NCBI GenBank assembly: GCA_015063845.1
Contig: SVTJ01000003.1
Span: 62,001-126,000 of the forward strand
Origin: Oscillospiraceae bacterium
Lineage (GTDB): Bacteria; Bacillota; Clostridia; Oscillospirales; CAG-272
DNA length: 64,000 bases
Direction: 5' to 3'
Within the stretch, counting starts at the first letter, position 1. Every line of letters starts with the position of its first letter. Below the pieces are notes generated by a model that saw nothing but the letters and a program-made list of their open reading frames with translations, had not been told where the DNA came from and ran no database searches. Shown here one piece after another: positions 12,192 to 60,441 of the stretch. Position numbers and translations under genes: made by a program.

Positions 12192-12794
12192 CTAAAAAGC
12201 CTCTTCGAGGGCTTCGAGTATTTTAAAGCGTGCCTCATATGCAGGCTCTTTGGTCTCTGTGATGACCTTGTACTGCTCGGGTGTCAGTCCAACTGCGATA
12301 AAAGCGTCCTCATTTGTTTGTGCCTTTGAAGCGGCATCAAGACAAAGTGGGGGGAAGAGCACGCACCACCAGTTTTCGCCCTTTGCCTCTCCTATAAGGA
12401 CTTGGAGTGAAAGATATTTTCCCGAAGGAAAGCAAAGCGAGCCATAGGTCTTGGTGGGGTAATCTTCCTCACAAAGTCGCACCTCGACCTCATATGAGTA
12501 TCCCAGTCTTTCCACCTCAGCTTTAGCGCATTTTTGTATTTCTTCAAGATTTGCAAGCGTACGCTCTTTTGCCTCTTCAAGATCTGCGCAATCTGCACTT
12601 ATAAGGTCACTTCTTGAAAGAATTGCGTCTCTTACGCAAAGCTTGAGCGCTTGATCTTCGTTGCTGTCGGAGTTTGCGATAACGTGCAAGCGCATAACGC
12701 TGTCGTATATCTTTTCCTCACCGTGAACGGGCATAAGTCCGATGATTGATATGATGAGGCAAACGGTAATAACAAACGTAAGTATTTTTTTCAT
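12192..12794 (-). CDS. spoIIR: stage II sporulation protein R
   Basis: A secreted forespore signal protein that triggers SpoIIGA cleavage of pro-SigE in the mother cell. The 200-residue protein has an N-terminal signal or anchor segment (about 1-24), then the family core beginning YDSVMRLHVIANSDSNEDQ, KLCVRDAIL and a C-terminal CVLFPPLC region. The start ATG at 12794 is preceded by AAGGAGC then T6. That SD sits in the 3' arm of a stem with a T tract, described separately. It lies downstream of, and on the same strand as, the hisS operon. Confidence 0.93.
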   Translation of the reverse strand: MKKILTFVITVCLIISIIGLMPVHGEEKIYDSVMRLHVIANSDSNEDQALKLCVRDAILSRSDLISADCADLEEAKERTLANLEEIQKCAKAEVERLGYSYEVEVRLCEEDYPTKTYGSLCFPSGKYLSLQVLIGEAKGENWWCVLFPPLCLDAASKAQTNEDAFIAVGLTPEQYKVITETKEPAYEARFKILEALEEAF

Positions 12795-12849
12795 AAAAAA
12801 GCTCCTTTTGTGTTGTGATATACTATCATTTCACCAAAAGGAGCGTTTT
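12795..12849 (-). terminator. terminator-like hairpin masking the spoIIR RBS
   Basis: On the minus strand GCTCCTTTTG (12844-12835), a 24-nt loop, CAAAAGGAGC (12810-12801), then TTTTTT and the spoIIR ATG. After one mismatch the A and T tracts extend the stem by four pairs. It can end hisS-operon transcripts and also pair away the spoIIR SD (AAGGAG). Confidence 0.8.
12827..12835 (-). promoter_or_regulatory. possible SigF -10 element for spoIIR
   Basis: GGTGAAATG on the minus strand fits the Bacillus subtilis SigF -10 consensus GGHRARHTD at every position. No matching -35 (GYWWA) is found at the right 15-16 bp spacing, so this is a partial match. A start from it would fall near 12819, inside the hairpin loop. 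Confidence 0.4.
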
Positions 12850-12858
12850 ATTCATTTT

Positions 12859-13197
12859 TTAGAAAATTTCCAACAATATCTCACGGTAGCTCATATTGCT
12901 GTTGAGTGTCCATTCGCCGAGGAGCAAAGAGATATCGTCGCCCTTTCCCTTGGAACGCAGATACATCAAAAAAACGAGATCGTTTTTTATTATCCCTTTT
13001 TCTTTGAGAATAAGGGAGAGCTGCTTGTCGTTTATGGGTGAGGAGACGGTAAGAATCTCCTTTTTGTCGGGCTTTACAAAAGCGTACATATCATTTGCGA
13101 CCGAAATGATGAGGCAGGCAAGAAAAACAGATACGAGAAAAAGAGGAATGATTATTCCAAGAGCGCGTCGCGCGCCTATATTCGTTTGTTCTGCCAT
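12859..13197 (-). CDS. short MltG/YceG N-terminal-like membrane protein
   Basis: A 112-residue protein with one membrane helix (about residues 12-35) and an outside domain of about 75 residues. The pattern ILTVSSPINDKQLSLILKEK, GIIKNDLVFLMYLRSKG then GEWTLNSNMSYREIL is like the LysM-like N-terminal part of endolytic transglycosylase MltG. The catalytic YceG domain is absent, so it is not a lytic enzyme; it may bind glycan. Start at 13197 has RBS GGAGG. It is the last gene of the hisS operon and begins 14 bp after the CPBP gene. Confidence is moderate because the match is by pattern. Confidence 0.6.
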   Translation of the reverse strand: MAEQTNIGARRALGIIIPLFLVSVFLACLIISVANDMYAFVKPDKKEILTVSSPINDKQLSLILKEKGIIKNDLVFLMYLRSKGKGDDISLLLGEWTLNSNMSYREILLEIF

Positions 13198-13211
13198 ATG
13201 CTTTCCTCCGT

Positions 13212-14174
13212 TTATAACCAAGCAATAATAAGTGCGATTATGTAAACGACAAGGCAAGCGATAGCCGACGGAGCTTTAATGACTTCAAGGTAAGAAGCGC
13301 GTATTTTTTCGGGCTTTGTGATAACAGGCTGGCGGTAATCCGCAGAATATCCGCGATAGAGATACTTTTTGTATAGTCTTGACGCCTGAGCGCAGAAAAC
13401 TATTGCGGATATAAAGAATAGGAGTGCTACCAAAAATACGAAAAATCCAGAACTGCTCAGTCTGTAAAGCGCGTTCATATACGGCTGACCAAAAATACCG
13501 AAAAGATTGTAGAAAAAATGTACTATCATCGCCCCGAAAAGCGAGCGAGTGGAATAAAGTGTGAGAGCGAGTATTGCACCTGCGAACAGATATACGGGGA
13601 GGTTTATAATGTTGAAATGTAAGAGACCGAAGAAAAGCGAGCTGAATATCACCGCTCTTATGACACCGCCTTTTTCGTATTCATAGCAAACGATGCCTCG
13701 ATATACGAACTCCTCGCAAACAGCGGGAAGCACGGCGTATGCTAAGATGAGATATAGCTTTGAGGTGACAGTTCCGTTATCCTTTGAGATAAAGGTATCG
13801 TACAGAGAAAAGTTCGAAGAAAGGCTGTCAAGACCGTCAAAGAGAACGCTCAGCAACAATCCGCCCGTTATCATAAGCACGGCGGCAGATAACATAAGCG
13901 GAATAGAGGAGAGGGACGGCAGCTTCAAGCGCAGATGTGATATGTAGCTCTCTCCGCTGAAACGACACCATATAGCGGCAGGGAGCAGAAATATCATCAT
14001 TTGCAATATGACTACGCTGAAATACTCATTCTCTCTGTTTATAAGAGTGAGGTCAATTATCTTGGAAAGGAGCAATAGAATATACGTTGCGAGCACGACC
14101 ACAGTCGGCTGAAGCACAATGGTTTTGCCTTTGTTGCTCGGCTTTTTTTGCTGCTTAGCGGCTTTGCTTTTCAT
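13212..14174 (-). CDS. CPBP family intramembrane metalloprotease
   Basis: A 320-residue polytopic membrane protein of the CAAX/Abi (CPBP) protease family. The catalytic motifs are present: CEEFVYRGI (EExxxR type, about residue 180), FGLLHFN (FxxxH, about 208) and HFFYNLFG (about 256). The N-terminus (about 1-18) is Lys-rich and cytoplasmic. Substrates are not known; relatives serve in protein modification, bacteriocin immunity or sporulation. The start ATG at 14174 overlaps the previous gene by 20 nt, with AAAGGAG upstream. Confidence 0.85.
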   Translation of the reverse strand: MKSKAAKQQKKPSNKGKTIVLQPTVVVLATYILLLLSKIIDLTLINRENEYFSVVILQMMIFLLPAAIWCRFSGESYISHLRLKLPSLSSIPLMLSAAVLMITGGLLLSVLFDGLDSLSSNFSLYDTFISKDNGTVTSKLYLILAYAVLPAVCEEFVYRGIVCYEYEKGGVIRAVIFSSLFFGLLHFNIINLPVYLFAGAILALTLYSTRSLFGAMIVHFFYNLFGIFGQPYMNALYRLSSSGFFVFLVALLFFISAIVFCAQASRLYKKYLYRGYSADYRQPVITKPEKIRASYLEVIKAPSAIACLVVYIIALIIAWL

Positions 14175-14745
14175 TGGTCCGCATAACTCCTTTCTCGGTA
14201 ATAATAGTATCCACACAAAAGTCTGTTTTATTCGAGGGAAGCGTGTAGCAAGTGCACACGCTGTACGCAACGCCAATGCTGCGTACCTTTGCTACGGCGA
14301 GAAAACGGTCATAATAGCCTTTTCCGTAGCCAATACGCGAGCCACGCATATCAAATGCCAGCGCGGGAACGAGACATATACAATCGCAAGGGAACTCAAT
14401 ACGCTCCGCATCGTCCTGCGGCTCGGGAATTCCGTAAGCACCCTCGTGTAGCTCATCAAGGCTGCGTACGTAGCGAAAATCAAGCTCACAGCTTTGCGTC
14501 AGTGATATAGGGAATGCCACGCGAACCCCACTTTTCAAAAGATACTCTGCAAACGGCAGTACGTTTGGTTCTCCCTTTACGGGATAAAACAGCAAAACTG
14601 TATCCGCCGTGACCTGCTTTTTTAGCTGTTCGAATATCTCTTTGTCAAGCTCAGCTCTTTGCGTGTCGGACAAGCTGGCGCGTATTTGTCTGAAGTGCTT
14701 ACGCGCTTCGGACTTATCCGAAAACTCAGTTCGCGATAACTGCAT
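14155..14745 (-). CDS. 5-formyltetrahydrofolate cyclo-ligase
   Basis: ATP-dependent conversion of 5-formyl-THF to 5,10-methenyl-THF in the cytoplasm. The 196-residue length is usual. It has the N-terminal KSEARKHFRQIR basic segment, the substrate-binding PVKGEPNVLPF loop (about residue 57), and the C-terminal signature AFDMRGSRIGYGKGYYDRFL (about 125-145). It overlaps the DJ-1 gene by 20 nt and the CPBP gene by 20 nt. Folate salvage connects it in theme with folT-folC about 28 kb away. Confidence 0.93.
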   Translation of the reverse strand: MQLSRTEFSDKSEARKHFRQIRASLSDTQRAELDKEIFEQLKKQVTADTVLLFYPVKGEPNVLPFAEYLLKSGVRVAFPISLTQSCELDFRYVRSLDELHEGAYGIPEPQDDAERIEFPCDCICLVPALAFDMRGSRIGYGKGYYDRFLAVAKVRSIGVAYSVCTCYTLPSNKTDFCVDTIITEKGVMRTNEKQSR

Positions 14746-15265
14746 TTTTTAAGTTGTCGGCATATTCCTTGCCGCGGTAAAGCTCAACTATCTTAAGCCC
14801 CATCTCAAGTGCCGCGCCCATACCCTTTGCCGTGAGCACCTTGCCATCAAGCACTACTTTAAGCTCGGGCACGGTAGCGCCTATAAGTCTATCTTCAAAT
14901 CCCGGGTAGCAGACAGCCTGCTTGCCAACTAAAAGCCCCATATCTCCAAGTATCGACGGAGCGGCGCAGATAGCGGCAATATAGCAGCCCTTGTCAACGG
15001 CAAGACGAACGGTATCCGTTACCGTTTTGCTTGCTGCAAGATTGAGCGTTCCCGGCATACCGCCCGGAAGAAACACCATGTCCATATCGTCAGCGCAAAG
15101 CTCTTTGTCGGCGATATCGGCAAGCACGGTAATTCCGTGCGCTCCCGTGACGGACTTTCCACCAACGCCAATAGTAGTTACCTCAATAGACGCGCGGCGC
15201 ATAAGATCGAGAGGGCAGAGAGCTTCTATTTCCTCAAACCCCTCGGCTAAAAACATATATATCAT
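14726..15265 (-). CDS. DJ-1/PfpI family protein
   Basis: A 179-residue single-domain flavodoxin-like protein of the DJ-1/ThiJ/YajL type. The acidic residue is in AEGFEEIEA (about 7-15), the nucleophile-elbow cysteine in AAICAAPSIL (about 100), and a GCYPGFEDR-like CYPGFEDRL block is present. Roles in the family include deglycase or chaperone activity; the exact role is open. The start at 15265 has RBS CGGAGA, while longer in-frame starts lie in hisS. It begins 19 bp after hisS. Confidence 0.88.
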   Translation of the reverse strand: MIYMFLAEGFEEIEALCPLDLMRRASIEVTTIGVGGKSVTGAHGITVLADIADKELCADDMDMVFLPGGMPGTLNLAASKTVTDTVRLAVDKGCYIAAICAAPSILGDMGLLVGKQAVCYPGFEDRLIGATVPELKVVLDGKVLTAKGMGAALEMGLKIVELYRGKEYADNLKNAVIAN

Positions 15266-15284
15266 AGTTTTCTCCGTACAGTAG

Positions 15285-16586
15285 TTATTTTGCGAAGTAT
15301 TCGCCAAGAGCGTCAAGTGAGACCTCGCACTCCTCACGAGCTTCAAGGTCTTTTATCTTGACAACGCCTCTCTCAAGCTCGCTCGAGCCCATAATGGCGA
15401 TGTGGCTGTAATGTCCCTTAACGGCGTAGTCGATCTGCTTGCCGAACTTCTTTGCGCCCATAAAGAGAGCGGAAGTCACGCCAAGGCTCTGGAGCTTGTC
15501 CGTGAGCTTCATATACTCGGTGTAGGGAACGTCATCAAAGCGGGTAACGAGCACCTTTCTCTCGACCTTGTAAAGGTCAGGAATGAGGTCGTGTGTTACG
15601 AGGAAGTTTTCAAGCGTAACGTCACCCATTCCGTAGCCAACGCCCGATACCTTTGCGTTCTTTACGAAAAGACCGACAAGATTGTCGTATCTTCCACCAC
15701 CGAACATAGCGCGGTTGTTCTCGGGAGCATTGTCAAATACCTCGAAAACAGTTCCCGTATAGTAGTCAAGACCACGAATTATGCCAAAGTCAAACACACA
15801 GTACTTGTCAAGCTCCAATGTGCGGAGCGCACGGAAGAGATCGAGCAGCTCGCCCGAGCCCACGCTGTCTGGGCAAAGAGCGGTTGCCTCATCAACGCTC
15901 ATCGTGTAGAGCGCGTCAATCTTTGCTATCTTGTCTGCATCAAGACCGAGCTCGGTCATATCCTTTTCATAGCTCTCGCGGCTTACCTTGTTCTTGCGGT
16001 CAACTACCTTTGAAACAAGTCTTGCGCCCTCTGCATCCTTGCCTGTGATAGCGGCGATAACGTCGTTGAAGAAGCGGCGGTTGTTGATGCGGACGGTAAA
16101 CATGCTTTCGTCAGCACCGAATGCCTTCATTATGCGGATAGCGCTGACGATGACCTCAAGGTCTGCCTCGTAGGTGTCGCAGCCGAAAACGTCGACGTTG
16201 AGCTGCCAGAACTCACGAAGTCTGCCGCGCTGAGTTGCCTCATAGCGGTACATATTGGGGATAGAAAACCAGCGGAGAGGGAAGGAAAGCTCGTTTATCT
16301 TGCCCGCTACCATACGCGCGACGGTAGGTGTCATCTCTGGGCGTATTGCGAGAGAGCGGTCTGCTCTGTCAAGAAAATTGTAGGTCTGCTTGGTAGCTAT
16401 CTCCTCACCGCTCTTTGCAGCATAGAGCTCAAGAGACTCGAGCATAGGACCATTGTATTCTTCAAATGCCGCGACCTCGAGAGCCTCGCGTATCTTTCCG
16501 AAGAACCAGTTACGAACTCTCATGTCGTCGGGATAAAAATCTCTTGTTCCCTTATAGGGCTTGGTTGATAAAAGCTGTGCGCACAT
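15285..16586 (-). CDS. hisS: histidine--tRNA ligase
   Basis: Class II aminoacyl-tRNA synthetase that charges tRNA-His. The 433-residue protein has motif 2 in the LRWFSIPNMYRYEATQRGRL region (about residue 100), the HisA-type peptide GLDYYTGTVFEVF (about 265) and motif 3 with GGGRYDNLVG (about 288). The C-terminal anticodon domain is present. The start at 16586 has RBS AAAGGA. It leads a minus-strand operon of five genes behind a full-consensus promoter. Confidence 0.96.
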   Translation of the reverse strand: MCAQLLSTKPYKGTRDFYPDDMRVRNWFFGKIREALEVAAFEEYNGPMLESLELYAAKSGEEIATKQTYNFLDRADRSLAIRPEMTPTVARMVAGKINELSFPLRWFSIPNMYRYEATQRGRLREFWQLNVDVFGCDTYEADLEVIVSAIRIMKAFGADESMFTVRINNRRFFNDVIAAITGKDAEGARLVSKVVDRKNKVSRESYEKDMTELGLDADKIAKIDALYTMSVDEATALCPDSVGSGELLDLFRALRTLELDKYCVFDFGIIRGLDYYTGTVFEVFDNAPENNRAMFGGGRYDNLVGLFVKNAKVSGVGYGMGDVTLENFLVTHDLIPDLYKVERKVLVTRFDDVPYTEYMKLTDKLQSLGVTSALFMGAKKFGKQIDYAVKGHYSHIAIMGSSELERGVVKIKDLEAREECEVSLDALGEYFAK

Positions 16587-16630
16587 ATATGATATCCTTT
16601 CAAAAAAGAAAAATATAAACAATTATATCA

Positions 16631-16659
16631 ATTATAGCACAAATAAGCAGCTTTGTCAA
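16631..16659 (-). promoter_or_regulatory. consensus SigA promoter of hisS operon
   Basis: Minus strand TTGACA (16659-16654), 17 bp, TATAAT (16636-16631). Confidence 0.85.
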
Positions 16660-16703
16660 TTAAATATATATACTGAAATAGGAAAAAATTTTATTGCAAC
16701 CGC

Positions 16704-16731
16704 TTGACTTTAATATTCAAAGTGCTATAAT
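16704..16731 (+). promoter_or_regulatory. SigA promoter for MATE gene
   Basis: TTGACT (16704-16709), 16 bp, TATAAT (16726-16731), about 80 bp before the start. Confidence 0.7.
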
Positions 16732-16810
16732 TAATAGGGATAATAAGGTACGGGTATGTCTATTTATCCTGTGTCGACAATGAAAATATAGAGAAACGAT
16801 GGGGGGAATA

Positions 16811-18196: not shown

Positions 18197-18207
18197 GAAT
18201 AAAGACT

Positions 18208-18242
18208 AAGAGGTCGGAACACCGTGTTCCGACCTCTTTTTT
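18208..18242. terminator. bidirectional terminator between two MATE genes
   Basis: Stem AGAGGTCGGAACA / TGTTCCGACCTCT with a short loop and T run, placed between convergent stops. Confidence 0.9.
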
Positions 18243-18246
18243 GCTA

Positions 18247-19617: not shown

Positions 19618-19694
19618 TTTTAATACTCCGTTTCTGATTCACCCAATATTTTAACACAAAATCAAAAAAATGTAAAGAGAGTGAGATTAAACTC

Positions 19695-19723: not shown

Positions 19724-19753
19724 GTCGCCAACGAGAAGAAAAGGAGCGGGACA

Positions 19754-32806: not shown

Positions 32807-34396
32807 ATGCTTTTTACCTCATATGGATTTATTGCCTTTTTGGCAATTATGTTCGCCGTTTATTTCCTTGCGCCCAAAAAGTGGCAATGGGTGACGTTGC
32901 TGATTGGAAGCTACGTATTTTACGCGTTTGCGGGACTTGAATATTTGGTGTTTATTCTTTTTACCACCGTATCCGCGTACGTTATCTCACGGCTTCTCAA
33001 GAGTGCGCTTGACAAAGAGAACGGCTATATTGAAAAAAGCAGAGACACGCTTTCAAAGGAAGAGAGAAAGGCATACAGAGCAAAAGCCAAGAAAAAGAGA
33101 TTTCACATTCTTCTTTGGGGACTTGTGCTGAACTTTGGTGTGCTTGCCGTTCTTAAATATACGGCGTTTGCAGTGCACAACGTAAACGGAGTTCTATCGC
33201 TTTTCGGCAGAGAGGGATTGACGGTTCCATCACTTCTTTTGCCTATGGGAATATCGTTTTACACCTTCCAGACGATGGGATATCTTATAGACGTTTACAG
33301 AGCGAAGGCAGAGGTTGAGAAAAATCCCGCGAAGCTCGCGCTGTTCGTGTCGTTCTTCCCACAGCTGGTACAAGGACCTATATCAAGATTTTCCGACCTT
33401 GGCGCGCAGTTGACAGCGCCTCACAAATTCGAGACTAAGACCTTTACGTTCGGTCTTCAGAGAATACTTTGGGGTTACTTTAAAAAGCTTGTTATAGCTG
33501 ACCGAGTGCTCGTAGCTATGAATACCATGCTTGATGCCCCCGAGGACTTCAAAGGAGTGTACGTCCTTCTGCTCATATTGCTGTATTCTATACAGATATA
33601 CGCAGACTTTACAGGCGGTATAGATATCACCATAGGTATTGCAGAGGCGATGGGAATAAAGCTTGCCGAAAACTTTGATAGACCGTTCTCCTCAAGGTCC
33701 ACAAAGGAATACTGGAGACGCTGGCATATCACGATGGGTACGTGGTTTAAGGACTACATATTCACACCGCTTTCGGTCACCGCACCCGTTATGAAGCTCA
33801 ATAAATTCCTGTCGGGTAAGATAGGCAGACGCGCCGCGAGCAAGACGGTCGCGTATATAGCGAGCGGAGTTACGTGGTTTTTGACAGGACTTTGGCACGG
33901 TGCGGGCTGGAACTTTATCGTTTGGGGCTTGCTTAACTGTCTTGTTATAATAGTTTCCGAGGCACTTGAGCCTACGTACAATAAGTTCCACGACCGTTTT
34001 CCAAGACTTACCTCGTCCGCGGCGTACGGCAAATTTATGGCGGTAAGAACCTTCCTTTTGATGGGACTTATCCGCTCGCTCGATTGCTATCGCAACGTAG
34101 GCGTTACGTTCACTATGTGGGGAAGTATGTTTACCTTTAAGGGTATCGGTTCCTTGTTTAGCGGTGGAATATTCGAGCTTGGTCTCGGACTTACCGACTT
34201 CATAATTATCCTTGTCGGTGTTTGCGTCGTGTATGCAATCAGCAATATGCACGCGAAGGGAAGTGTCAGAGAAAGACTTTGGCAGCGCCCCGTGCTTTCT
34301 GCGGCTCTTTGCGTAACGCTGTTCTTAGCTGTCATAATGCTCGGCGCGTATGGCGCAGGATATGACGCTTCTCAGTTTATCTACAACCAATTCTAA
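32807..34396 (+). CDS. dltB: MBOAT family acyltransferase (DltB-like)
   Basis: A 529-residue polytopic membrane O-acyltransferase. The family's active-site histidine is in TGLWHGAGWNFIVWG (about residue 364). Earlier marks are LLPMGISFYTFQTMGYLID (about 145) and RFSDLGAQL. It should pass the aminoacyl group from the carrier across the membrane. The start has only a weak GGGA RBS 7 bp after dltC, suggesting coupling. It could also be related to alginate O-acetyltransferase AlgI; the neighbours favour DltB. Confidence 0.87.
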   Translation: MLFTSYGFIAFLAIMFAVYFLAPKKWQWVTLLIGSYVFYAFAGLEYLVFILFTTVSAYVISRLLKSALDKENGYIEKSRDTLSKEERKAYRAKAKKKRFHILLWGLVLNFGVLAVLKYTAFAVHNVNGVLSLFGREGLTVPSLLLPMGISFYTFQTMGYLIDVYRAKAEVEKNPAKLALFVSFFPQLVQGPISRFSDLGAQLTAPHKFETKTFTFGLQRILWGYFKKLVIADRVLVAMNTMLDAPEDFKGVYVLLLILLYSIQIYADFTGGIDITIGIAEAMGIKLAENFDRPFSSRSTKEYWRRWHITMGTWFKDYIFTPLSVTAPVMKLNKFLSGKIGRRAASKTVAYIASGVTWFLTGLWHGAGWNFIVWGLLNCLVIIVSEALEPTYNKFHDRFPRLTSSAAYGKFMAVRTFLLMGLIRSLDCYRNVGVTFTMWGSMFTFKGIGSLFSGGIFELGLGLTDFIIILVGVCVVYAISNMHAKGSVRERLWQRPVLSAALCVTLFLAVIMLGAYGAGYDASQFIYNQF

Positions 34397-38893: not shown

Positions 38894-40085
38894 AATATCC
38901 CATTGTTGTAAGCAGCTGGTATCTTACCGCACTCACAAACGTGTTATCACCTGATATAAGCAATATAGTGTCTTTGTTAAGCTCCTTTAGCGCGTTCTTG
39001 ACAATAGCCTTCTTGCTTTTTTCGGGTCCTATTATTCTCTCGATAGTATATCCCCGTTCCGTCAGCGCATCAACGTAAGCGTTCGCCAGAGCCTCATCGG
39101 GAAGACACAGTCTCACACGTCTTCCGCTGATATCCTTAAAGTCGGCAAGCGCGTCGCAGACGATGCCGATAGCGACGGGGGAGTGGGTGCTGTCGATTAT
39201 CATAAGCGGATTTATTGACACTACCTCGAATTTTGCGGGTATTGTCAGCTTTAAAAATCCGTTTGAGATAGCGTCTTCACTGATATCAAAGCCCTTACGA
39301 ACCAGCATCTCGACTGCTTCAAGCACGAGAACGGCGTTGTATATCTGGAAACGACCGCATAGGCGCAGGGAATAGTCCTTGCCCTTATATGAAAAGCTTG
39401 TATTTGTAAAGGAAAGTCTGCCGACCTTTATTGCCGATTTTTGCGGAAGGGTGAGACGGCAGCTTGCGGCATAGCAGGTGTCTGAGATTATCTTGTAGGC
39501 GTCATTGTTCTGCGGAACACTGACGATCTCCTCGATACCTCGGCATATATAAGAGCGTATGCGCACTATCTCCGCCTGACTGTTGCAGGGGATAGTGCCG
39601 CAGATTATTGCCGCGAAAGGGGGAGGTAGCTGGACGGACGGATCAATGCCGAAGTGATCGCTCTCAATTATGCATATCTCGCATTTTTTGTCGACGAATG
39701 CAAGAAGCGCGATGCACAAAAGTATCTCCGCGCCTACGGGCTCAAGAGCTACGTTCTCATCGTCGGTAGTCTGCTTTGCGGAGGCTCTTACCATCTCGGT
39801 ATAGTGAGCAAATTCGTCCATTGATATCGGTTTTCCGCCAATGCAAACGTTCTCTCTCGGTTCATCACGCAACGGCATACGCAGACATCCCACTCGGTAT
39901 CCCGCGCTTGTAAGAATAGAGGTGAGCATTTCCGCGCACACAGTCTTTCCGTTGCTTCCCGCAAGTCGAATATATTTAATTCTTTTTTGTGGCGAGCCAA
40001 GCCTTGCAAGCATACGCAGAAGCGCTCCCGTACTTTTTTTATCGGGGGCGCTTTTGATATGCTTTACGGCATTAACGTATGTCAC
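38892..40085 (-). CDS. degenerate FolC/Mur-ligase-like paralogue
   Basis: A 397-residue protein with the overall plan of folylpolyglutamate synthase. The P-loop GSNGKTVCAEML (about residue 43) is kept. The FolC signature EAGMGGRxDSTN is replaced by IESDHFGIDPSV and the DGAHNP motif by DSTHSP, so normal folate ligase activity is doubtful. The start is GTG at 40085 with a strong AGGAGG RBS. It is last in the minus-strand group plsY, methyltransferase, this gene. A conventional folC lies about 3 kb away (42935). It may ligate another substrate. Confidence 0.7.
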   Translation of the reverse strand: MTYVNAVKHIKSAPDKKSTGALLRMLARLGSPQKRIKYIRLAGSNGKTVCAEMLTSILTSAGYRVGCLRMPLRDEPRENVCIGGKPISMDEFAHYTEMVRASAKQTTDDENVALEPVGAEILLCIALLAFVDKKCEICIIESDHFGIDPSVQLPPPFAAIICGTIPCNSQAEIVRIRSYICRGIEEIVSVPQNNDAYKIISDTCYAASCRLTLPQKSAIKVGRLSFTNTSFSYKGKDYSLRLCGRFQIYNAVLVLEAVEMLVRKGFDISEDAISNGFLKLTIPAKFEVVSINPLMIIDSTHSPVAIGIVCDALADFKDISGRRVRLCLPDEALANAYVDALTERGYTIERIIGPEKSKKAIVKNALKELNKDTILLISGDNTFVSAVRYQLLTTMGY

Positions 40086-42203: not shown

Positions 42204-42306
42204 TAGAAGAGTAAGGATATGAGCGTAAAGTGCTTGTCGGACGGGGAGTTGCCGATAGGACGAAAAGCCTTGTGGCTTGCGGCTCTTATCCTGCATCCCG
42301 CTTCAT
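42204..42306 (+). promoter_or_regulatory. tetrahydrofolate (THF) riboswitch aptamer
   Basis: Conserved pieces are in order: GAAGAGTAAGGAT, GAGCGTAAAGTGC, GCGGCTCTTATCC and TGCATCCCGCTTC. GAAG (42206-42209) pairs with CTTC (42301-42304). AGGATA-T-GAGC pairs with GCTC-T-TATCCT with a T.T mismatch, and AAGCC/GGCTT forms an inner hairpin. THF riboswitches are known in front of folT in Clostridia, and the next gene is folT. Confidence 0.88.
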
Positions 42307-42343: not shown

Positions 42344-42393
42344 CCTTCTTTATCCAGAGCCATATGCAGTTGGTGGGTAAAGGAGGTTTTTTT
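42344..42393 (+). terminator. THF riboswitch expression platform, terminator overlapping folT RBS
   Basis: CCTTCTTTATCC (42344-42355) can pair fully, with G-U pairs, with GGGTAAAGGAGG (42375-42386), which contains the folT SD. T7 (42387-42393) follows and then the ATG. GGGTAGA (42316-42322) could pair with TTTATCC (42349-42355) as an antiterminator. Confidence 0.75.
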
Positions 42394-42927
42394 ATGCGAG
42401 AAAAAAACAGCGTTTTTCGGACGGTCAGATCAATGACCGTGGCTGCAATGCTCGTCGCTATGAGCGTTGTCATCGGTATTTTTTGCAAGAGCTTTTTGAA
42501 CTTTGGCGCAGGACTTTTCAGGATTACTTTTGAAAATCTGCCAATAATACTCTCGGGTATTCTTTACGGTCCCATCGTTGGCGGACTTGTGGGAATATGC
42601 TCCGACCTTGTCAGCTATCTTTTGTCAAGTCAAGTATATCCGCCAAATATCATAGTTACCGCAGGTGCGGCGGCTGTTGGAATAGTCTCGGGAGTTATGG
42701 CGAAATACGTTGTTCGTAAGCAAGGTATGGCTCAGATAATACTCTCGGGTGCGGTGGCACATATCGTGGGTTCAATGATAATAAAACCGATAGGTCTTTA
42801 TCAGTTTTACGGTATACTCGTGCTTTGGAGAATACCGCTCTACCTTATTATCGCACCTATTGAGATACTTGTGCTTTGCCTTCTTTTCCGCAGAGAAAGC
42901 TTTAGGCGTATTGTTGATCGAAAGTGA
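42394..42927 (+). CDS. folT: folate ECF transporter S component FolT
   Basis: Membrane substrate-binding subunit of an energy-coupling-factor folate importer. The 177-residue protein has about six helices, with SMTVAAMLVAMSVVIG at the N-terminus and FENLPIILSGILYGPIVGGLVG (split about residues 47-68), typical of FolT. The shared EcfAA'T energising module is not in the window. The start at 42394 has SD AAAGGAGG, followed by T7. Its stop is 7 bp before folC, so uptake and polyglutamylation are controlled by one THF riboswitch. Confidence 0.92.
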   Translation: MREKNSVFRTVRSMTVAAMLVAMSVVIGIFCKSFLNFGAGLFRITFENLPIILSGILYGPIVGGLVGICSDLVSYLLSSQVYPPNIIVTAGAAAVGIVSGVMAKYVVRKQGMAQIILSGAVAHIVGSMIIKPIGLYQFYGILVLWRIPLYLIIAPIEILVLCLLFRRESFRRIVDRK

Positions 42928-53929: not shown

Positions 53930-53952
53930 TACAACGGAGGAATTATCGTAAA

Positions 53953-54411
53953 ATGATAGCGGTGATACAAAGAGTTTCGAGCGCTACAGTAAAGGTTGAC
54001 GGAGAGCTTGTCGGTAGCTGCGGACAAGGACTTTGCGTGCTTCTCGGTGTTGCTAAAGGAGATACGCAGGCTGATGCGGACGCACTTTCGAGAAAGATAC
54101 TCAATCTGCGTATATTTGAAGACGATGCGGGTAAGATGAACCGCTCTGTTCTTGACGTTGGCGGAGGAATGCTCATAGTATCCAATTTTACGTTGCTTGC
54201 CGCGTATAAAAAGGGAAATCGCCCCGATTATATGGGGGCGGCTGCACCTGACGAGGCGAATGAACTTTACGAGTATTTTGCGGGACTTTGTGCAGAGCAC
54301 GTGCCCGTGGGGCGCGGAGTGTTTGGCGCTGATATGAAGGTCGATATCGCAAACGACGGGCCCGTTACCATAGTTATGGACAGCGCGGTGCTGCTGGGCA
54401 AGCAGGGATAA
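53953..54411 (+). CDS. dtd: D-aminoacyl-tRNA deacylase
   Basis: Hydrolyses D-amino acids from mischarged tRNA. The 152-residue protein has RVSSATVKVDGE (about 7), SNFTLLAAYKKGNRPDY (about 78; most family members have SQFTL) and the cross-subunit motif NDGPVTIVMDS (about 135). It follows relA, an association found widely in Firmicutes. RBS AACGGAGG lies upstream, 13 nt from the ATG. Confidence 0.95.
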   Translation: MIAVIQRVSSATVKVDGELVGSCGQGLCVLLGVAKGDTQADADALSRKILNLRIFEDDAGKMNRSVLDVGGGMLIVSNFTLLAAYKKGNRPDYMGAAAPDEANELYEYFAGLCAEHVPVGRGVFGADMKVDIANDGPVTIVMDSAVLLGKQG

Positions 54412-54435
54412 TTCCATAAAGACAAGGAAGACGTT

Positions 54436-55929
54436 ATGATTATTAGATTAGAGTCACCGATAAACAGATATTACGTGCAAACGCTCGCTATGATATTCTT
54501 TCCGGGCGAGAAGTTTGGCGAGGACGAGCTTATAAAGACAGACGTTTCATCGCTTTTTGTGCGTACGGAAAACACCGAAACCGGTGTATTTGCGTATGCA
54601 GAGGCAAGCTTTGAGGGGAAGATTAGCAAGGCAGAATATACAGCGGAGAAGAGCGATGGCAGAACGGCGGAGAGAACGCTGAAGCTTGCGGTCGGAGGAG
54701 CTGTTATTCATGCGCTCGGAGAGCTTGTCGGCTACCGTCCCGCGTGGGGAATGCTCATAGGAGTGCGTCCCTCAAAGGTGGCAAGCGAGATGCTCAATGC
54801 GGGTATGAGCAAGACTAAAGTAAAAAGGATACTTAATACAGATTATCTTGTTATTCCCAAAAAAGCCGCGCTTGCGACGGATATTGCCGTCACAGAGAAG
54901 AGAATAGTCGGAGAACCGTCTGCAAAGGATTGCAGCGTTTACGTGTCTATTCCTTTTTGTCCTTCAAGATGCTCGTACTGCTCGTTCGTATCCTATACCT
55001 CAAAGAGATTGCTATCTCTTATTCCCGAGTATTTGGAGAAGCTTAAGACGGATATAAAAGGACAGTTCGATATAATCAAAAAGCTTGGACTTCGTGTGCG
55101 CACTGTATATATCGGAGGAGGTACTCCTACCATACTCGACGAGCGACAGCTTGAGGAGTTACTCAGATTTATCAGTGAGCAGACAGACGTGTCATTGCTT
55201 GACGAATATACACTTGAAGCAGGCAGACCCGACACTATAACGGCTGAAAAATTTGCGATAGCCAAGGCGTACGGTGTCACGAGAGTGAGCGTAAATCCGC
55301 AGAGCCTCTGTGATGAAGTTCTTTGCGGCATAGGAAGAAGCCACACGGCAGAGGACTTTTTCCGTGCTTACGATATAGCGAAGGCGTCGGGTATAAAGAC
55401 AGTAAACGTTGACCTTATCGCAGGACTTCCTGCGGATAACTTCAAGCGCTTTTCGGCAACGGTGGACCGCATAATTGCTCTTGACCCCGAGAACATAACA
55501 GTGCATACGTTCTGCGTTAAAAAGAGCGCGGAGATATTGCGCTTGAATTCGCGTATATATTCGGTTCACGGCGGAGACGCGGGAAAATGCGTGGACTATT
55601 CGCAGATAAAGATACAGCAGGCAGATTACGTGCCGTACTATATGTATAGACAGAAAAATACCGTGGGAAACTATGAGAACGTAGGCTTTGCAAAGACGGG
55701 ACACGAGGGACTTTACAACATCTACATGATGGAAGAGATACACTCGATATTCGCCGCAGGAGCAGGGGCTGTCAGCAAGCTTGTGGACAACACGGGAGCA
55801 TACGGTAAATCTGCAAATATAGAAAGACTGTTCCACAACAAATATCCCTATGAATATCTCACGGAGGATAGGAATAGTATGTTTGAGGAAGCCGCACTGA
55901 AGTTTTATACCGAGCACGGTCTGCTTTGA
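54436..55929 (+). CDS. hemZ: coproporphyrinogen dehydrogenase HemZ-like radical SAM protein
   Basis: A 497-residue radical SAM enzyme of the HemN/HemZ family. The cluster motif CPSRCSYCSFVSY (CxxxCxxC) is at about residue 175. GGGTPTILDERQL (about 228) and VSVNPQSLCDEVL (about 278) follow. The N-terminal 160 residues are the HemZ-type extension with MLIGVRPSKVA. It could oxidise coproporphyrinogen III anaerobically, but no other heme genes are near, and related HemW-like proteins are chaperones; activity is open. Confidence 0.85.
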   Translation: MIIRLESPINRYYVQTLAMIFFPGEKFGEDELIKTDVSSLFVRTENTETGVFAYAEASFEGKISKAEYTAEKSDGRTAERTLKLAVGGAVIHALGELVGYRPAWGMLIGVRPSKVASEMLNAGMSKTKVKRILNTDYLVIPKKAALATDIAVTEKRIVGEPSAKDCSVYVSIPFCPSRCSYCSFVSYTSKRLLSLIPEYLEKLKTDIKGQFDIIKKLGLRVRTVYIGGGTPTILDERQLEELLRFISEQTDVSLLDEYTLEAGRPDTITAEKFAIAKAYGVTRVSVNPQSLCDEVLCGIGRSHTAEDFFRAYDIAKASGIKTVNVDLIAGLPADNFKRFSATVDRIIALDPENITVHTFCVKKSAEILRLNSRIYSVHGGDAGKCVDYSQIKIQQADYVPYYMYRQKNTVGNYENVGFAKTGHEGLYNIYMMEEIHSIFAAGAGAVSKLVDNTGAYGKSANIERLFHNKYPYEYLTEDRNSMFEEAALKFYTEHGLL

Positions 55930-55962
55930 GGCGCGGATACTCATTTGTTAGGAGGAAGCACC

Positions 55963-56835
55963 GTGAAGGTAGCTGAGCTTATAAAAAGATGCGATGAGGA
56001 TTTTGAAAAAAGACTGTATTCCATCGCGGATAAAATACATATCGATGGGGTAAGGCTAATAAGCTTGTCAGGACCTACCTGCTCGGGAAAGACAACCGCG
56101 GCAGAGATGCTCGCAAAGCGTCTCGAGACCTACGGAAAGCGGGTGCATATAGTGTCTATCGACGATTTTTATTACGACAGAGACTATTTGCATAAGCTTT
56201 CAAAGAGCAAGGGACTTGACGGCATCGATTATGATAGTGTTGATACGATAGACCTTTGCGCGCTTGGGACGTTCGTTGAGGAAATGTATTCGGAGGACGA
56301 GGTCCGATGCCCTGTGTTTGATTTTAAAACGGGAATGAGAGCAGGGGAGAGAAGAATAAGCGCAGGAGACAACGATCTCTTTATCTTTGAGGGGATCCAG
56401 GCAATATATCCCGAGGTCACCGCACTTTTCTCGTCTCACGGCTACGCGAGCGTTTATATTGCTCCGCTAAGCTCGATATATGTCGGAGACGAAGAGTTTA
56501 CTCCCAATGAGATAAGACTTCTTCGACGTTTGGTTCGAGATACAAATTTCAGAGGCGCTGACGTAGAGTTTACCCTCGAGCTTTGGGAGAGCGTAAGACA
56601 AAACGAAGAGAGAAATATTTTTCCGTATGCGGACGGCTGTATCTACAAGATAAATTCCACACAGGAATATGAGCTGTCCATACTAAAGCCTTTCCTTGAG
56701 AATATACTCTCACCGATACGTCCGCAATCAAAGTATTACGTACATACAAGACGTATACTTAAACAGATCGCTACGGTAGAGGCGGCTGACGCGTCTCTTA
56801 TCGGAAAGAACTCACTTTACAGAGAATTCGTATAA
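55963..56835 (+). CDS. uridine kinase-like nucleoside kinase
   Basis: A 290-residue P-loop kinase. Walker A GPTCSGKTT is at about residue 38, the uridine-kinase motif SIDDFYYDRDY at about 65, and the DYDSVDTIDL and RLVRDTNFRGA blocks fit the family. A nucleoside (uridine/cytidine-like) substrate is likely. The start is GTG at 55963 with AGGAGG 6-7 nt upstream; earlier in-frame TTG codons lie in or before that RBS. Its stop is 4 bp before a large inverted repeat. Confidence 0.85.
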   Translation: MKVAELIKRCDEDFEKRLYSIADKIHIDGVRLISLSGPTCSGKTTAAEMLAKRLETYGKRVHIVSIDDFYYDRDYLHKLSKSKGLDGIDYDSVDTIDLCALGTFVEEMYSEDEVRCPVFDFKTGMRAGERRISAGDNDLFIFEGIQAIYPEVTALFSSHGYASVYIAPLSSIYVGDEEFTPNEIRLLRRLVRDTNFRGADVEFTLELWESVRQNEERNIFPYADGCIYKINSTQEYELSILKPFLENILSPIRPQSKYYVHTRRILKQIATVEAADASLIGKNSLYREFV

Positions 56836-56838
56836 CAT

Positions 56839-56963
56839 ACACCGCCCATTACGCTACATAGTCGGACGCACGCGCCACGGTATGAATACCCAAAGCGCGC
56901 GGCGAATAAGATTTTAGTGCGGCTCTTGCTCCTTTGCGAGAGCACGAATGTAATGGGCGGTGT
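56839..56963 (+). other. candidate structured RNA leader of flippase gene
   Basis: A perfect 14-bp inverted repeat, ACACCGCCCATTAC (56839-56852) and GTAATGGGCGGTGT (56950-56963), encloses 97 nt. Inside are GGTA-TGAA-TACC flanked by GCGC/GCGC, and CTCTTGC / GCGAGAG with GTG/CAC outside it. The 3' outer arm holds the GGGCGGTG that is the only SD-like sequence of the next gene. Not recognised as a known class. Confidence 0.5.
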
Positions 56964-56969
56964 TTGCGA

Positions 56970-58568
56970 TTGAAAAGAGCTGATACGTCGCTGGGTAAAA
57001 GCGAGCGCACGTTTATGTCGGGCGTTCTCGTGCTCACGGCTTCTACTATAATTGTCAAAATAATTGGTCTTGCGTATAAGATCCCCCTATTGTCCGTTAT
57101 GGGAGCAGAGGGAATGGGGTATTTCAATTCGGCGTATGAGATATATGCGCTTTTATGCGGTATATCCACGTCGGGACTTCCCATAGCCGTGTCTATGCTT
57201 ATCTCTTCCGCAAAGGAGGAGGGGGATCTCTCAAAGCAGAGAGGTGTGTTCAGAACGGCATCTGCGTTGCTTCTGACAAAAGGAATACTGAGTGCCGCGC
57301 TTCTTGCGCTGTTTGCGCGTTCACTCTCCCGATTTATCGGTAATACCGACGCATATCTTGCGATCCTTGCGATATCTCCCGCATTGCTGTTTTCTTGTAT
57401 TTCGGGCGCAATACGGTCGTATTTTCAAGGGCACAGGAGAATGGCGCCCACCGCAATCTCTCAACTTATTGAGGCACTCGGAAAACTAATATTCGGTGTC
57501 GCGTTTGCTTGCCTTGCGCTAAAGATGGGGTTGGGAATACCAACAGCAGCTGCGTTTGCAGTTATGGGCGTCTCTCTCGGAAGCCTTCTCGCGGCTTTGT
57601 TTCTTGTCGTAAAAAGAGCAATGGAGAGCACGGAAAAAAAGATAAAAACAGCTAATAAAAAAGGCGGCTACGTATTTTCACTGTTGCACATATCCTTGCC
57701 GATAACCCTCGGCTCTGCTCTTATGGGAAGCACGAGGATGTTAGATATGGCACTTATAATGAGACGACTTCAGGATATAGGCGTAAGTGCCGCTGAGGCA
57801 AATAGAATATACGGTTCTTATACCACGCTTGCTTTGCCGATATACGGTCTTGTTCCAGCGTTTATTCCGCCCATAACCGAGAGCCTTATACCAAGGCTTT
57901 CAGCGGTTGCGGGTACGGATAGGCTTGACGAACAAAGGGGAGCTGTCGCAAGCTCTATGAGACTTACCTTGCTTCTCGCTATCCCGTCTGCTATGGGAGT
58001 AGCTTTGTATTCTTCGCAGATAATTGGGTTGCTTTTTGGTAACGGTGACGCAAGTGCTGTCGGCGCTCCGCTCTTGTCTGCGCTTGGTGTGTCAGTGCTG
58101 CTTACCTGTATGATAACTACCGTTACGGCTATTCTTCAGTCGTATAAAAAAGTTATAGCGCCGATAGCCGCTCTGGCGGCAGGTGCTGCGGTCAAAGCGG
58201 TGAGCGCGTATTTTCTTATCGGCAATCCCGACGTAAGGGAGATGGGCGCGCCGATAAGCACGCTTTTATTCAATGTTACAGTTCTTGCTATCGACCTTGT
58301 TTTCGTATACCGTGTTGTACCGCGTGGTACAGGTATGCTTAAGACGTTGCCTCGATGCGCGGTGTCAGGCGCGATAGCTATGATAATATCATATGCTACG
58401 TATCTCGCGCTCTCTAAGCATATCAGCGTGACGGCAGTTCCTTTCTTGGCGGCACTTATCGTGGCGGTCGTGGCATATTTTGTGCTTGCTTATGCTTTTG
58501 GAATAGTCAGCAAGGACGATATTTCAGTTGTTTCAAGAAAAAGCGGTGACGTTCACCGCTCAAAATAA
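56970..58568 (+). CDS. SpoVB/MurJ-type polysaccharide flippase
   Basis: A 532-residue membrane protein with about 14 helices of the MOP superfamily (SpoVB/MurJ-like lipid-linked oligosaccharide flippase). The start of the core, GVLVLTASTIIVKIIGLAYK then VMGAEGMGYFNSAYEIY, is typical of SpoVB proteins. It could serve spore cortex or cell-wall synthesis. The start is uncertain: TTG at 56970 and TTG at 56964 follow GGGCGGTG; ATG at 57015 (before SGVLVL) has no RBS. It lies 12 bp before mazG. Confidence 0.85.
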   Translation: MKRADTSLGKSERTFMSGVLVLTASTIIVKIIGLAYKIPLLSVMGAEGMGYFNSAYEIYALLCGISTSGLPIAVSMLISSAKEEGDLSKQRGVFRTASALLLTKGILSAALLALFARSLSRFIGNTDAYLAILAISPALLFSCISGAIRSYFQGHRRMAPTAISQLIEALGKLIFGVAFACLALKMGLGIPTAAAFAVMGVSLGSLLAALFLVVKRAMESTEKKIKTANKKGGYVFSLLHISLPITLGSALMGSTRMLDMALIMRRLQDIGVSAAEANRIYGSYTTLALPIYGLVPAFIPPITESLIPRLSAVAGTDRLDEQRGAVASSMRLTLLLAIPSAMGVALYSSQIIGLLFGNGDASAVGAPLLSALGVSVLLTCMITTVTAILQSYKKVIAPIAALAAGAAVKAVSAYFLIGNPDVREMGAPISTLLFNVTVLAIDLVFVYRVVPRGTGMLKTLPRCAVSGAIAMIISYATYLALSKHISVTAVPFLAALIVAVVAYFVLAYAFGIVSKDDISVVSRKSGDVHRSK

Positions 58569-58580
58569 AGGAGTTTTAAA

Positions 58581-59393
58581 ATGACTACAAAGGAAAAGAT
58601 CCAACATTTGATGAATAAAGAGAACTATTCTTTTGATGACCTCGTGCTGATCATGGAGGTACTTCGATCTGAGGAAGGTTGTCCGTGGGATAGAGAGCAG
58701 ACGCACAAGAGCATAAGAAAGGACTTTATCGAGGAGACCTATGAGGTCATAGAGGCGATAGATACCGAAGACCCCACACTTATGCGAGAGGAGCTTGGTG
58801 ACGTGCTGTTGCAGGTGGTGTTCCACGCTCGTATCGAAGAGGAAGAGGGAAGATGCAATATAGATGACGTTGCAAACGATATATGCGTAAAGCTTATACA
58901 CCGCCATCCTCACGTTTTCGGTGACGTTGTTGCGGAAACGTCGGATAAGGTGCTCTCAAATTGGGAAATGATAAAGAGCGAGGAAAAAGAGAGAGTGACA
59001 GTTACCGATAAGCTTCGCGCTATTCCCCCTATGCTTCCCGCACTTATGAGAGCGGAGAAGGTAGGTAAGAAAGCGTCCTGCTTTGACTTTCCCGACACGG
59101 AGAGTGTCATGGATAAGCTGAGCGAGGAATTTTGCGAGCTCTCTGAGGCAATAGACGAAGGAGAAAACGCTCACATTGAGGAAGAAATGGGAGATTTGTT
59201 GCTTACCGTTACTTCTCTTTGCCGTAAGCTTGGTGTTGATCCCGAGGTGGCGTTGAACAAAGCTACCGATAAGTTTATCTATAGATTTGAAACTGTTGAA
59301 AACGTAACTATCGAGCGCAAAATGAACATAAAAGAGATGACAATGACAGAGCTTGATGCGATTTGGGATGAAATTAAACATAAAAAGCAATAA
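58581..59393 (+). CDS. mazG: nucleoside triphosphate pyrophosphohydrolase MazG
   Basis: Hydrolyses NTPs to NMP and PPi, a housekeeping enzyme. The 270-residue protein has two MazG domains. The first has CPWDREQTHKSIRKDFIEE and EELGDVLLQVVFHARI (about 35-90). The second has LSEEFCELSEAIDEG and HIEEEMGDLLLTV (about 178-215), with the metal-binding ExxED-type residues. RBS AAGGAG. It is commonly next to hup and rqcP in Firmicutes, as here. Confidence 0.94.
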   Translation: MTTKEKIQHLMNKENYSFDDLVLIMEVLRSEEGCPWDREQTHKSIRKDFIEETYEVIEAIDTEDPTLMREELGDVLLQVVFHARIEEEEGRCNIDDVANDICVKLIHRHPHVFGDVVAETSDKVLSNWEMIKSEEKERVTVTDKLRAIPPMLPALMRAEKVGKKASCFDFPDTESVMDKLSEEFCELSEAIDEGENAHIEEEMGDLLLTVTSLCRKLGVDPEVALNKATDKFIYRFETVENVTIERKMNIKEMTMTELDAIWDEIKHKKQ

Positions 59394-59430
59394 AAAGTTA
59401 AAAAAATTGGAGAAAAAAACAAAAAAACTC

Positions 59431-59459
59431 TTGTAATTACTGAAAAAATGTGTTATAAT
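59431..59459 (+). promoter_or_regulatory. SigA promoter of HU gene
   Basis: TTGTAA (59431-59436), 17 bp, TATAAT (59454-59459), 68 bp before the ATG. Confidence 0.7.
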
Positions 59460-59527
59460 GTGTATGTAATTCGGAGGTGGATATAATTCCACACGGAAAA
59501 TAAAAATACAGAAAGGTAAAAAATATC

Positions 59528-59800
59528 ATGAACAAGACACAGCTCGTAGACGTAGTAGTAGCAAAGACCGGTATGAAGAAGAAGGAGGCAGAGGCTGCAG
59601 TTAACGCTATGACTGAGGCTATCACAGAGGCTCTCAAGGCTGGCGATAAGGTACAGCTCATCGGCTTCGGTACATTTGACGTTAAGGCAAGTGCTGCAAG
59701 AGAGGGACGTAACCCCAGAACAGGCGAGACCATCAAGATCGCAGCTTCCAAGAGACCCGTATTCTCCGCTGGTAGCGCACTTAAGAACGCTGTTAACTAA
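59528..59800 (+). CDS. hup: DNA-binding protein HU
   Basis: A 90-residue histone-like nucleoid protein acting as a dimer. It starts MNKTQLVDVVVAKTGMKKKE and has the DNA-arm signature GRNPRTGETIKIAASKRPVF (about 55-75). RBS AGAAAGG lies 14 nt upstream. Codon choice is like dnaK (many GCT, AAG, CTC), in line with high expression. It has its own promoter and terminator. Confidence 0.97.
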   Translation: MNKTQLVDVVVAKTGMKKKEAEAAVNAMTEAITEALKAGDKVQLIGFGTFDVKASAAREGRNPRTGETIKIAASKRPVFSAGSALKNAVN

Positions 59801-59817
59801 TTTGTTTTATGAAATTC

Positions 59818-59845
59818 GGGCGATGGTTTTCCGTCGCCCTTTTTC
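59818..59845 (+). terminator. HU gene terminator
   Basis: Stem GGGCGATGG / CCGTCGCCC, loop TTTT, then T5. Confidence 0.88.
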
Positions 59846-59863
59846 ATCGCAAACGGAGGAAAT

Positions 59864-60109
59864 ATGAGACTTGATAAATACCTTAAGGTGTCGAGAATAA
59901 TCAAGCGCAGAACAGTGGCTAACGATGCATGCGACGCAGAACACGTTACAGTAAACGGACGTCGCGCAAAAGCATCGTACGACGTAAAGGTAGGAGATAT
60001 CCTTGAGATAACCTTTGGTCAAAGAACGCTTAAGCTGCGTGTAAAAGAGGTTAAGGACAGCGTCGCAAAGGCGGATGCCGCAACTATGTACGAGATAATA
60101 GAGGAATAG
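59864..60109 (+). CDS. rqcP: S4-domain RNA-binding protein RqcP
   Basis: An 81-residue S4 protein (YabO/RqcP, HslR-like) that works in ribosome quality control with RqcH on stalled 50S subunits. It starts [17 protein letters not shown], and the loop [16 protein letters not shown] (about 27-45) is the S4 signature. RBS ACGGAGG. It is followed by yabP, the usual order in spore-formers. Confidence 0.92.
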
Positions 60110-60117
60110 TCCTCTCA

Positions 60118-60146
60118 GAATAAAGAGAGAATACTCCGCATATGAT
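60118..60146 (+). promoter_or_regulatory. SigE-like sporulation promoter of yabP
   Basis: GAATAAA (60118-60124), 14 bp, CATATGAT (60139-60146). This fits the Bacillus subtilis SigE consensus KHATATT-N14/15-CATACAHT at 5 of 7 and 6 of 8 positions. The yabP operon is SigE-dependent in B. subtilis. The -10 lies in the 5' arm of the hairpin, so the start falls in the loop. Confidence 0.6.
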
Positions 60147-60174
60147 TTAACAAAGTCGTATGCGGAGGTTTTTT
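60134..60174 (+). terminator. terminator-like hairpin masking the yabP RBS
   Basis: CTCCGCATATGA (60134-60145), 10-nt loop, TCGTATGCGGAG (60156-60167): 12 pairs with one G-U. Then G, T6 and the yabP ATG. The SD GGAGG is in the 3' arm. It can end rqcP transcripts and hide the yabP SD. Confidence 0.82.
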
Positions 60175-60441
60175 ATGGCTGAAAGGACGAGAATACTGTG
60201 TTTGACGGATAGAAATGACCTGAGAATAACCGGAGTTGAGGAGGTCATAAGCTTCGATGAAAACGGAGCAGAGCTGAGATGTGAAAATGGCAGACTTTTT
60301 GTTGACGGTGAGAACATACACATCTCCAATCTAAATACCGATAGCGGTGAGGTGAATATAACGGGTAAAATAAACGCTATGAGCTATGCGGATGAGACGG
60401 ATAAAAAACGTCGCGGCACGCTCGGAAGACTGTTTGGCTGA
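60175..60441 (+). CDS. yabP: sporulation protein YabP (YabP/YqfC family)
   Basis: An 88-residue protein of the YabP/YqfC family, required for spore formation in relatives. The core reads ILCLTDRNDLRITGVEEVIS then GRLFVDGENIHISNLNTDSG and ends GRLFG. The start at 60175 was chosen because GGAGG is 7-8 nt upstream; an in-frame ATG at 60160 lies in the hairpin arm. Its stop overlaps the yabQ start (TGATG). Confidence 0.92.
   Translation: MAERTRILCLTDRNDLRITGVEEVISFDENGAELRCENGRLFVDGENIHISNLNTDSGEVNITGKINAMSYADETDKKRRGTLGRLFG

Follow-up and report, generated by a model that had tools for sequence, protein, structure and literature searches.

Promoter-embedded terminator hairpins that pair the Shine-Dalgarno sequence: a probable read-through guard at spoIIR and yabP in an uncultured Clostridia clade

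Riboswitches are known whose expression platform places the Shine-Dalgarno (SD) sequence inside a terminator, and in the transposase genes of IS10 and IS50/Tn5, read-through RNA entering from outside folds over the SD, while the gene's own RNA does not. In the accessible text of one paper, the Bacillus subtilis sigG gene (spoIIIG) has a hairpin that, by prediction, keeps read-through RNA of the upstream spoIIG operon from being translated and is stated to be unable to form in transcripts from its own promoter (PMC5942855). Long early transcripts of phage T4 gene e and of homing endonuclease genes (I-TevI, segB, and others) lock the SD, and a late promoter in the region encoding the 5′ strand yields RNA without that strand, according to the available portions of two papers (PMC3014915, PMC2988022). 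We analyzed a 64,000-nucleotide (nt) stretch of an Oscillospiraceae bacterium (GenBank assembly GCA_015063845.1, contig SVTJ01000003.1, positions 62,001 to 126,000), referred to here as the window, in which spoIIR, folT, and yabP each begin with a hairpin that has the SD in its 3′ arm, followed by T6-7 and then the ATG. The hairpin is probably a guard against read-through RNA at spoIIR and yabP, with folT a separate case that belongs to a tetrahydrofolate (THF) riboswitch.

An earlier note on the window had singled out this build, and all three examples were found, with T6, T7, and T6 at spoIIR, folT, and yabP. Stem lengths were 10, 13, and 15 pairs, respectively, so that yabP has a longer stem than the 10 to 12 bp first given. 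The gene names hold, as Pfam assigned the proteins to Spore_II_R, ECF_trnsprt, and YabP and Rfam placed a THF aptamer at folT. Scanning for stems of at least 10 pairs with the SD within the 3′ arm, T5-8, and a start codon no more than 2 nt away recovered three places in the window, compared with a mean of 0.017 and a maximum of 1 in 60 block-wise dinucleotide shuffles. In all three, a stable stem is followed directly by a U tract, as in intrinsic terminators, and the proposal that each may serve as both a terminator and an SD lock agrees with folding calculations.

A feature absent from that earlier reading is that spoIIR and yabP have promoters embedded in their hairpins. We compared these loci across a genus set of 26 genomes, the source genome included. 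All 25 genus spoIIR loci have a GAATAA box; in 23 of them an AATGAT-type −10 stands at +23, and the 5′ arm takes up the stretch that separates −35 from −10. We tentatively label this promoter sigma-F/G-like (sigma-F-like) after the B. subtilis consensus; its GAATAA box differs from the GYATA-type −35 of that consensus, and the spacing is fixed in 23/25 loci. At yabP, with readable loci in 21 of 25 genus genomes (the G003, G014, and G016 loci gave no YabP match, and G024 was left out), [GT][ACT]ATA stands exactly 21 nt ahead of CATA in every locus (21/21), versus 4 of 444 other CATA sites there, and the CATA box lies within the 5′ arm. A −35 box and a CATA-type −10 at fixed spacing fit a sigma-E-type promoter, a label that again follows the B. 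subtilis consensus.

Read-through RNA was folded from the −35 onward and each gene's own RNA from its predicted start. Median SD openness was 0.00 in read-through RNA versus 0.66 in own RNA for spoIIR and 0.03 versus 0.51 for yabP, and the median z value of the read-through folds was −6.0 (spoIIR) and −5.7 (yabP). In folds of the region from the −35 to the start codon, at least 3 SD bases paired with bases ahead of the predicted start in 23/25 spoIIR and 17/21 yabP loci; such a lock plus T4 or longer before the ATG was found in 20/25 and 15/21. The SD is thus paired upstream of the predicted start, with the gene's own promoter in or near the 5′ strand, as expected of a read-through lock. Standard pairs filled 109 of 128 inner cells of the yabP stem (16 of 21 loci could be anchored), a value reached by 0 of 5,000 partner permutations. 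Conservation of the pairing in homologous loci, which the earlier note had named as a check, was borne out for spoIIR and yabP in the genus and for folT, where 21 of 23 readable THF loci in relatives have the SD in the stem and 20 keep the stem, the SD, and a T run (T4 or more).

With the sporulation promoters embedded in this way (the spoIIR 5′ arm in the −35/−10 spacer; the yabP −10 in the 5′ arm), the own RNA of each gene would start inside the hairpin, at about 12817 (minus strand) and 60154 (plus strand). A start at these positions would leave the own RNA without the 5′ arm, so that only read-through RNA could fold, terminate, and lock the SD. Own RNA would then have no terminator, an unpaired SD, and a 21- to 23-nt leader. 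RNA reading through from upstream (out of a weakly YceG-like open reading frame [ORF] at spoIIR and of HU and S4-domain genes at yabP) would contain both arms and terminate in the T6 run; molecules that escaped would have a paired SD. Such a guard would prevent spore proteins from being made at the wrong time. Comparison among genomes shows the fixed promoter spacing, arm position, retained pairing, and yabP covariation on which this proposal is built, and from these we infer the start sites, termination, translation block, and benefit.

The folT hairpin is an ordinary expression platform of a THF riboswitch, combining a terminator and an SD lock in the gene's own mRNA, with a predicted response to the ligand. 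When its SD arm was held open, the sequence directly after the aptamer folded against the 5′ half of the terminator, making it a plausible antiterminator in this model. A single device for all three genes was ruled out, since the folT promoter and aptamer lie upstream and its own mRNA carries both arms. The shared device suggested earlier was half right: the three sites share one shape, but the logics are two, with an own promoter inside the hairpin at spoIIR and yabP and a hairpin that is part of a riboswitch at folT. Elsewhere in the same genome (L012:1334-1515; G000:C7 near 114444), a flavin mononucleotide (FMN) riboswitch precedes a gene for an energy-coupling factor (ECF) S component and also has the SD inside its terminator hairpin.

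Across the genus, a stricter T6 pattern (GGAG-T6-ATG) occurred 141 times versus 23 for the control, at 140 distinct places after removal of one duplicate context (L040/L041). A strong stem with GGAG in its 3′ arm was present at 50 of these 140 places, against 1.96 expected when the upstream bases were shuffled. At 40 of the 50, the start codon opened a frame of 60 or more codons; the ORFs at the other 10 had fewer than 60. The 40 stem-bearing genes were 6 spoIIR, 11 yabP, 3 ylmC/ymxH (the build in other letters, in three genus members), 2 folT, 4 ECF genes of the L012 type, 3 mgtE, and 11 others that include GDSL lipases, GH43, rhamnosidase, and rbfA. An FMN aptamer was identified at three of the four L012-type genes; the fourth, L203, has a short flank in which nothing matched. 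A concentration in sporulation and riboswitch genes was seen at the genus level, where 20/40 are sporulation genes and 6/40 have, or resemble genes with, a THF or FMN aptamer, but the build is not confined to these classes and also occurs at metabolic genes with sigma-A-like promoters. At L168, L193, L156, and L197, genes that look vegetative (GH43, unknown, rhamnosidase, and DUF11, respectively), sigma-A-like boxes overlap or abut the 5′ arm; the design may therefore not be specific to sporulation.

Outside the genus, 68 spoIIR loci were reduced to 41 with a match reaching the protein start and then to 39 with a start codon (the order-level loci L127 to L134 were left out). A strong lock was found in 11 of the 39, where mononucleotide shuffling of the 72 nt upstream predicts 1.32; three of the 11 come from Bacillales, whose hairpin is of another, short-loop kind, and L286 is rich in A-U and G-U pairs. 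In spoIIR of L275, L279, L332, and L333 the arms are quite different, the 3′ arm containing the SD or an AGG, and a T5-7 run is present; yabP of L077, from another family in the order, has a promoter inside a terminator with the SD downstream. The Bacillales spoIIR genes at L331, L336, and L339 have a conserved hairpin of their own, with a short loop (CACTGTCTTAGTAAGGACGGTG), that directly precedes the SD and touches it. We lean, if narrowly, toward a broader view in which promoter-embedded terminator/SD-lock hairpins are a standard insulator of sporulation genes (spoIIR, yabP, and ylmC/ymxH) in this uncultured Clostridia clade, their letters turning over while promoter and pairing stay, and in which the design has arisen again at spoIIR in other Clostridia. 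If so, a transcript would be completed and translated only when the proper developmental sigma factor had made it.

Simple economy offers another account of the hairpins, in which the upstream genes' terminator is packed onto the next promoter and SD in a short intergenic space and both the lock and the hidden arm are unselected side effects. The hairpin indeed lies close behind the stop codon of the preceding gene (about 15 nt or less at spoIIR and about 25 nt or less at yabP), in 4 of 21 yabP loci the terminator with its embedded promoter is kept but the SD lies beyond the hairpin, and the 10 of 50 stems followed by ORFs of <60 codons show that plain terminators with an incidental ATG also fit the pattern. 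Nevertheless, other terminators of this genome usually precede the next promoter, sporulation genes account for half of the genes that bear the stem in the genus, and economy of termination does not predict a lock without a T tract, as is kept in two of the 21 yabP loci (L084 and L074) and in spoIIR L032, L037, and L038. We regard economy alone as unlikely. Because some loci keep only the terminator and others only the lock, folding suggests that the two halves of the device can each stand alone.

Much less probable still is attenuation within the genes' own mRNA, with transcription starting upstream of the 5′ arm, both arms in the transcript, and a regulator or growth state setting the fold. 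That is how folT works, through its THF aptamer, and the FMN-riboswitch genes of the genus share the shape, yet no Rfam aptamer was found near spoIIR or yabP, the promoter boxes are conserved around the 5′ arm at a constant distance from each other, and the end of the upstream coding region comes immediately before them, leaving no room for a leader. We give hardly any credence to a DNA operator, an inverted repeat over promoter and SD bound by a repressor: the repeat is near-perfect across the −10 region, but loop lengths vary widely (yabP, 3 to 29; spoIIR, 17 to 38; class A rows), letters differ between genes and distant species while the pairing stays, and G-U pairs, meaningful in RNA only, are frequent.

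Several observations weigh against a read-through guard at spoIIR and yabP. T6 before ATG is common without a stem: 72 stemless genes of the genus have it, 22 of them with a sigma-A-like promoter (at least 10 of 12) at the same position, and we therefore rejected a T run alone as proof of termination. (This stemless set leaves out two spoIIR rows with interrupted stems, L031 and L052; its proteins, compared with NCBIfam, gave no sporulation family among the first 25 of 549 families matched.) The T run is missing in 5/25 spoIIR loci, 2 of which also lack the lock, so that the guard is dispensable. Own-RNA SD openness was <0.25 in L055, L075, L087, L117, L120, and L121. Covariation at spoIIR was weak, with 82 of 108 cells standard, a value matched by 276 of 5,000 permutations. 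The yabP design was found in 1 of 15 order-level loci outside the genus, with the promoter visible in 7 of the 15. Among the 39 non-genus spoIIR loci, the strong lock occurred in 8/22 with a co-directional neighbor, 3/14 with a divergent one, and 0/3 that were unclear; the link to the neighbor was not significant, and the idea that the hairpin occurs only beside co-directional genes was dropped. Finally, the members of the genus are related, and all counts were taken without correction for kinship.

Within the source genome the device is real but rare, and the presence of three examples in one window is partly luck. A genome-wide count, proposed in the earlier note, found GGAG N0-3 T5 N0-3 ATG 31 times versus 11 for the reversed pattern. 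This search covered GGAG cores with ATG starts, and 30 of the 31 places were fetched, the 31st having no locus. Only 4 of the 30 have both a clear stem and a convincing gene (spoIIR, folT, yabP, and the FMN-riboswitch gene L012), which rules out a device that is frequent throughout this genome. Another five (L006, L013, L017, L019, and L025) have a strong stem followed by ORFs of 9 to 64 codons and look like plain terminators; at the first four, a GGGAGCC-T5/6-ATG terminator-like hairpin with short frames recurs and is perhaps a dispersed repeat. A looser scan of 464 kb of the genome (the window plus 20 stretches of 20 kb) gave 261 terminator-like places. It also lists L135, L148, L152, and window position 33877, all with TTG starts, and window position 40051, with T4 and a 96-codon ORF antisense to the adjoining minus-strand ORFs; we read these five as incidental.

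The mgtE leaders of three genus members (L159:1240-1515, L169:660-940, and L228:1-170) end in an SD-in-terminator hairpin; all three share a ATAGGGAA-like motif, and in L159 and L169 a short ORF lies upstream and has an SD of its own. No Rfam family matched them at gathering score, with weak sub-threshold hits in L159 only, and they are possibly an undescribed magnesium or leader-peptide attenuator. S-box-like leaders at L266 and, similarly, at L216, L226, L241, and L272 end in a terminator and then ATG, with frames of 5 to 23 codons; L266 was the one tested for an Rfam S-adenosylmethionine (SAM) match. Coordinates of the features in the window are collected in Table 1.

Table 1. Features of the spoIIR, folT, and yabP loci, in window positions
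Feature	Position	Strand	Remarks
spoIIR (Spore_II_R)	12192..12794	minus	Pfam PF09551, E 1.5e-45; ATG 12794-12792
spoIIR T6 tract separating SD and ATG	12800-12795	minus	
spoIIR hairpin 3′ arm CAAAAGGAGC with SD AAGGAG	12810-12801	minus	
spoIIR predicted transcription start, in loop	12817	minus	± few nt; placed 7 nt past −10
spoIIR −10-like region GGTGAAATGAT	12825..12835	minus	AATGAT-type motif, +23 from GAATAA in 23/25 loci
spoIIR hairpin 5′ arm GCTCCTTTTG, between −35 and −10	12844-12835	minus	10 pairs, loop 24 nt
spoIIR −35-like box GAATAA	12848..12853	minus	upstream in 25/25 genus spoIIR loci
Co-directional ORF upstream of spoIIR, weakly YceG-like	12859..13257	minus	Pfam PF02618, E 0.00094, under its cut-off; possible read-through source
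THF riboswitch aptamer	42205..42305	plus	Rfam RF01831, 85.6 bits (gathering 36)
folT hairpin 5′ arm CCTTCTTTATCCA	42344-42356	plus	13 pairs including G-U, loop 17 nt
folT hairpin 3′ arm TGGGTAAAGGAGG with SD AAAGGAGG	42374-42386	plus	
folT T7 tract ahead of ATG 42394	42387-42393	plus	
folT (ECF transporter S component)	42394..42927	plus	Pfam PF12822; THF aptamer upstream
HU gene upstream of yabP	59528..59800	plus	Pfam PF00216
S4-domain gene directly upstream of yabP	59864..60109	plus	Pfam PF01479; possible read-through source
yabP −35-like box GAATAAA	60118..60124	plus	21 nt ahead of CATA in 21/21 genus loci
yabP hairpin 5′ arm CTCCGCATATGATTT	60134-60148	plus	15 pairs, loop AACA
yabP −10-like box CATATGAT, inside 5′ arm	60139..60146	plus	
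yabP hairpin 3′ arm AAGTCGTATGCGGAG with SD GCGGAGG	60153-60167	plus	last G of SD at 60168
yabP predicted transcription start, near loop/3′ arm border	60154	plus	± few nt; placed 7 nt past −10
yabP T6 tract separating SD and ATG	60169-60174	plus	
yabP	60175..60441	plus	Pfam PF07873, E 2.2e-17; then yabQ (PF09578)

In B. subtilis, sporulation requires that SpoIIR be made in the forespore only and YabP in the mother cell only, and in the window both genes lie directly downstream of genes whose activity is expected during growth. A hairpin formed in read-through RNA only would give leak-proof expression with no protein factor, in about 60 bases. The device can be read from sequence (promoter boxes around one arm, the SD in the other, and a U tract ahead of the ATG), and start sites and sigma assignments thus become testable in uncultivable bacteria. 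It also carries a warning for annotation: a terminator right before a start codon need not mean a silent gene or a wrong start.

As in known THF and FMN riboswitch platforms, folT and L012 have an aptamer followed by a terminator/SD hairpin and a T tract, and no distinguishing feature was found among those tested. The IS10 and IS50/Tn5 locks share the logic of spoIIR and yabP but belong to mobile elements rather than developmental genes. A limited literature search, with subscription journals mostly outside its reach, found no description of promoter-embedded terminators at spoIIR or yabP among the papers listed, which is only a weak sign that none exists. The sigG case is alike in being a sporulation gene with a hairpin in read-through RNA only; its hairpin has 20 or more pairs and is described as blocking translation, and "terminator" is not a word in the accessible text of the paper (PMC5942855). 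As far as that text goes, spoIIR and yabP differ from it in the U tract on the hairpin, in the genes concerned, and in the 5′ arm lying inside the promoter. T4 gene e and its like use the same lock logic for phage timing, with no terminator role described in the portions of the papers available. Judged from these partial sources, the logic of a read-through lock already has precedents in B. subtilis sigG and phage T4, and its union with a U-tract terminator, repeated at spoIIR, yabP, and ylmC/ymxH, is by our limited literature search a new variant.

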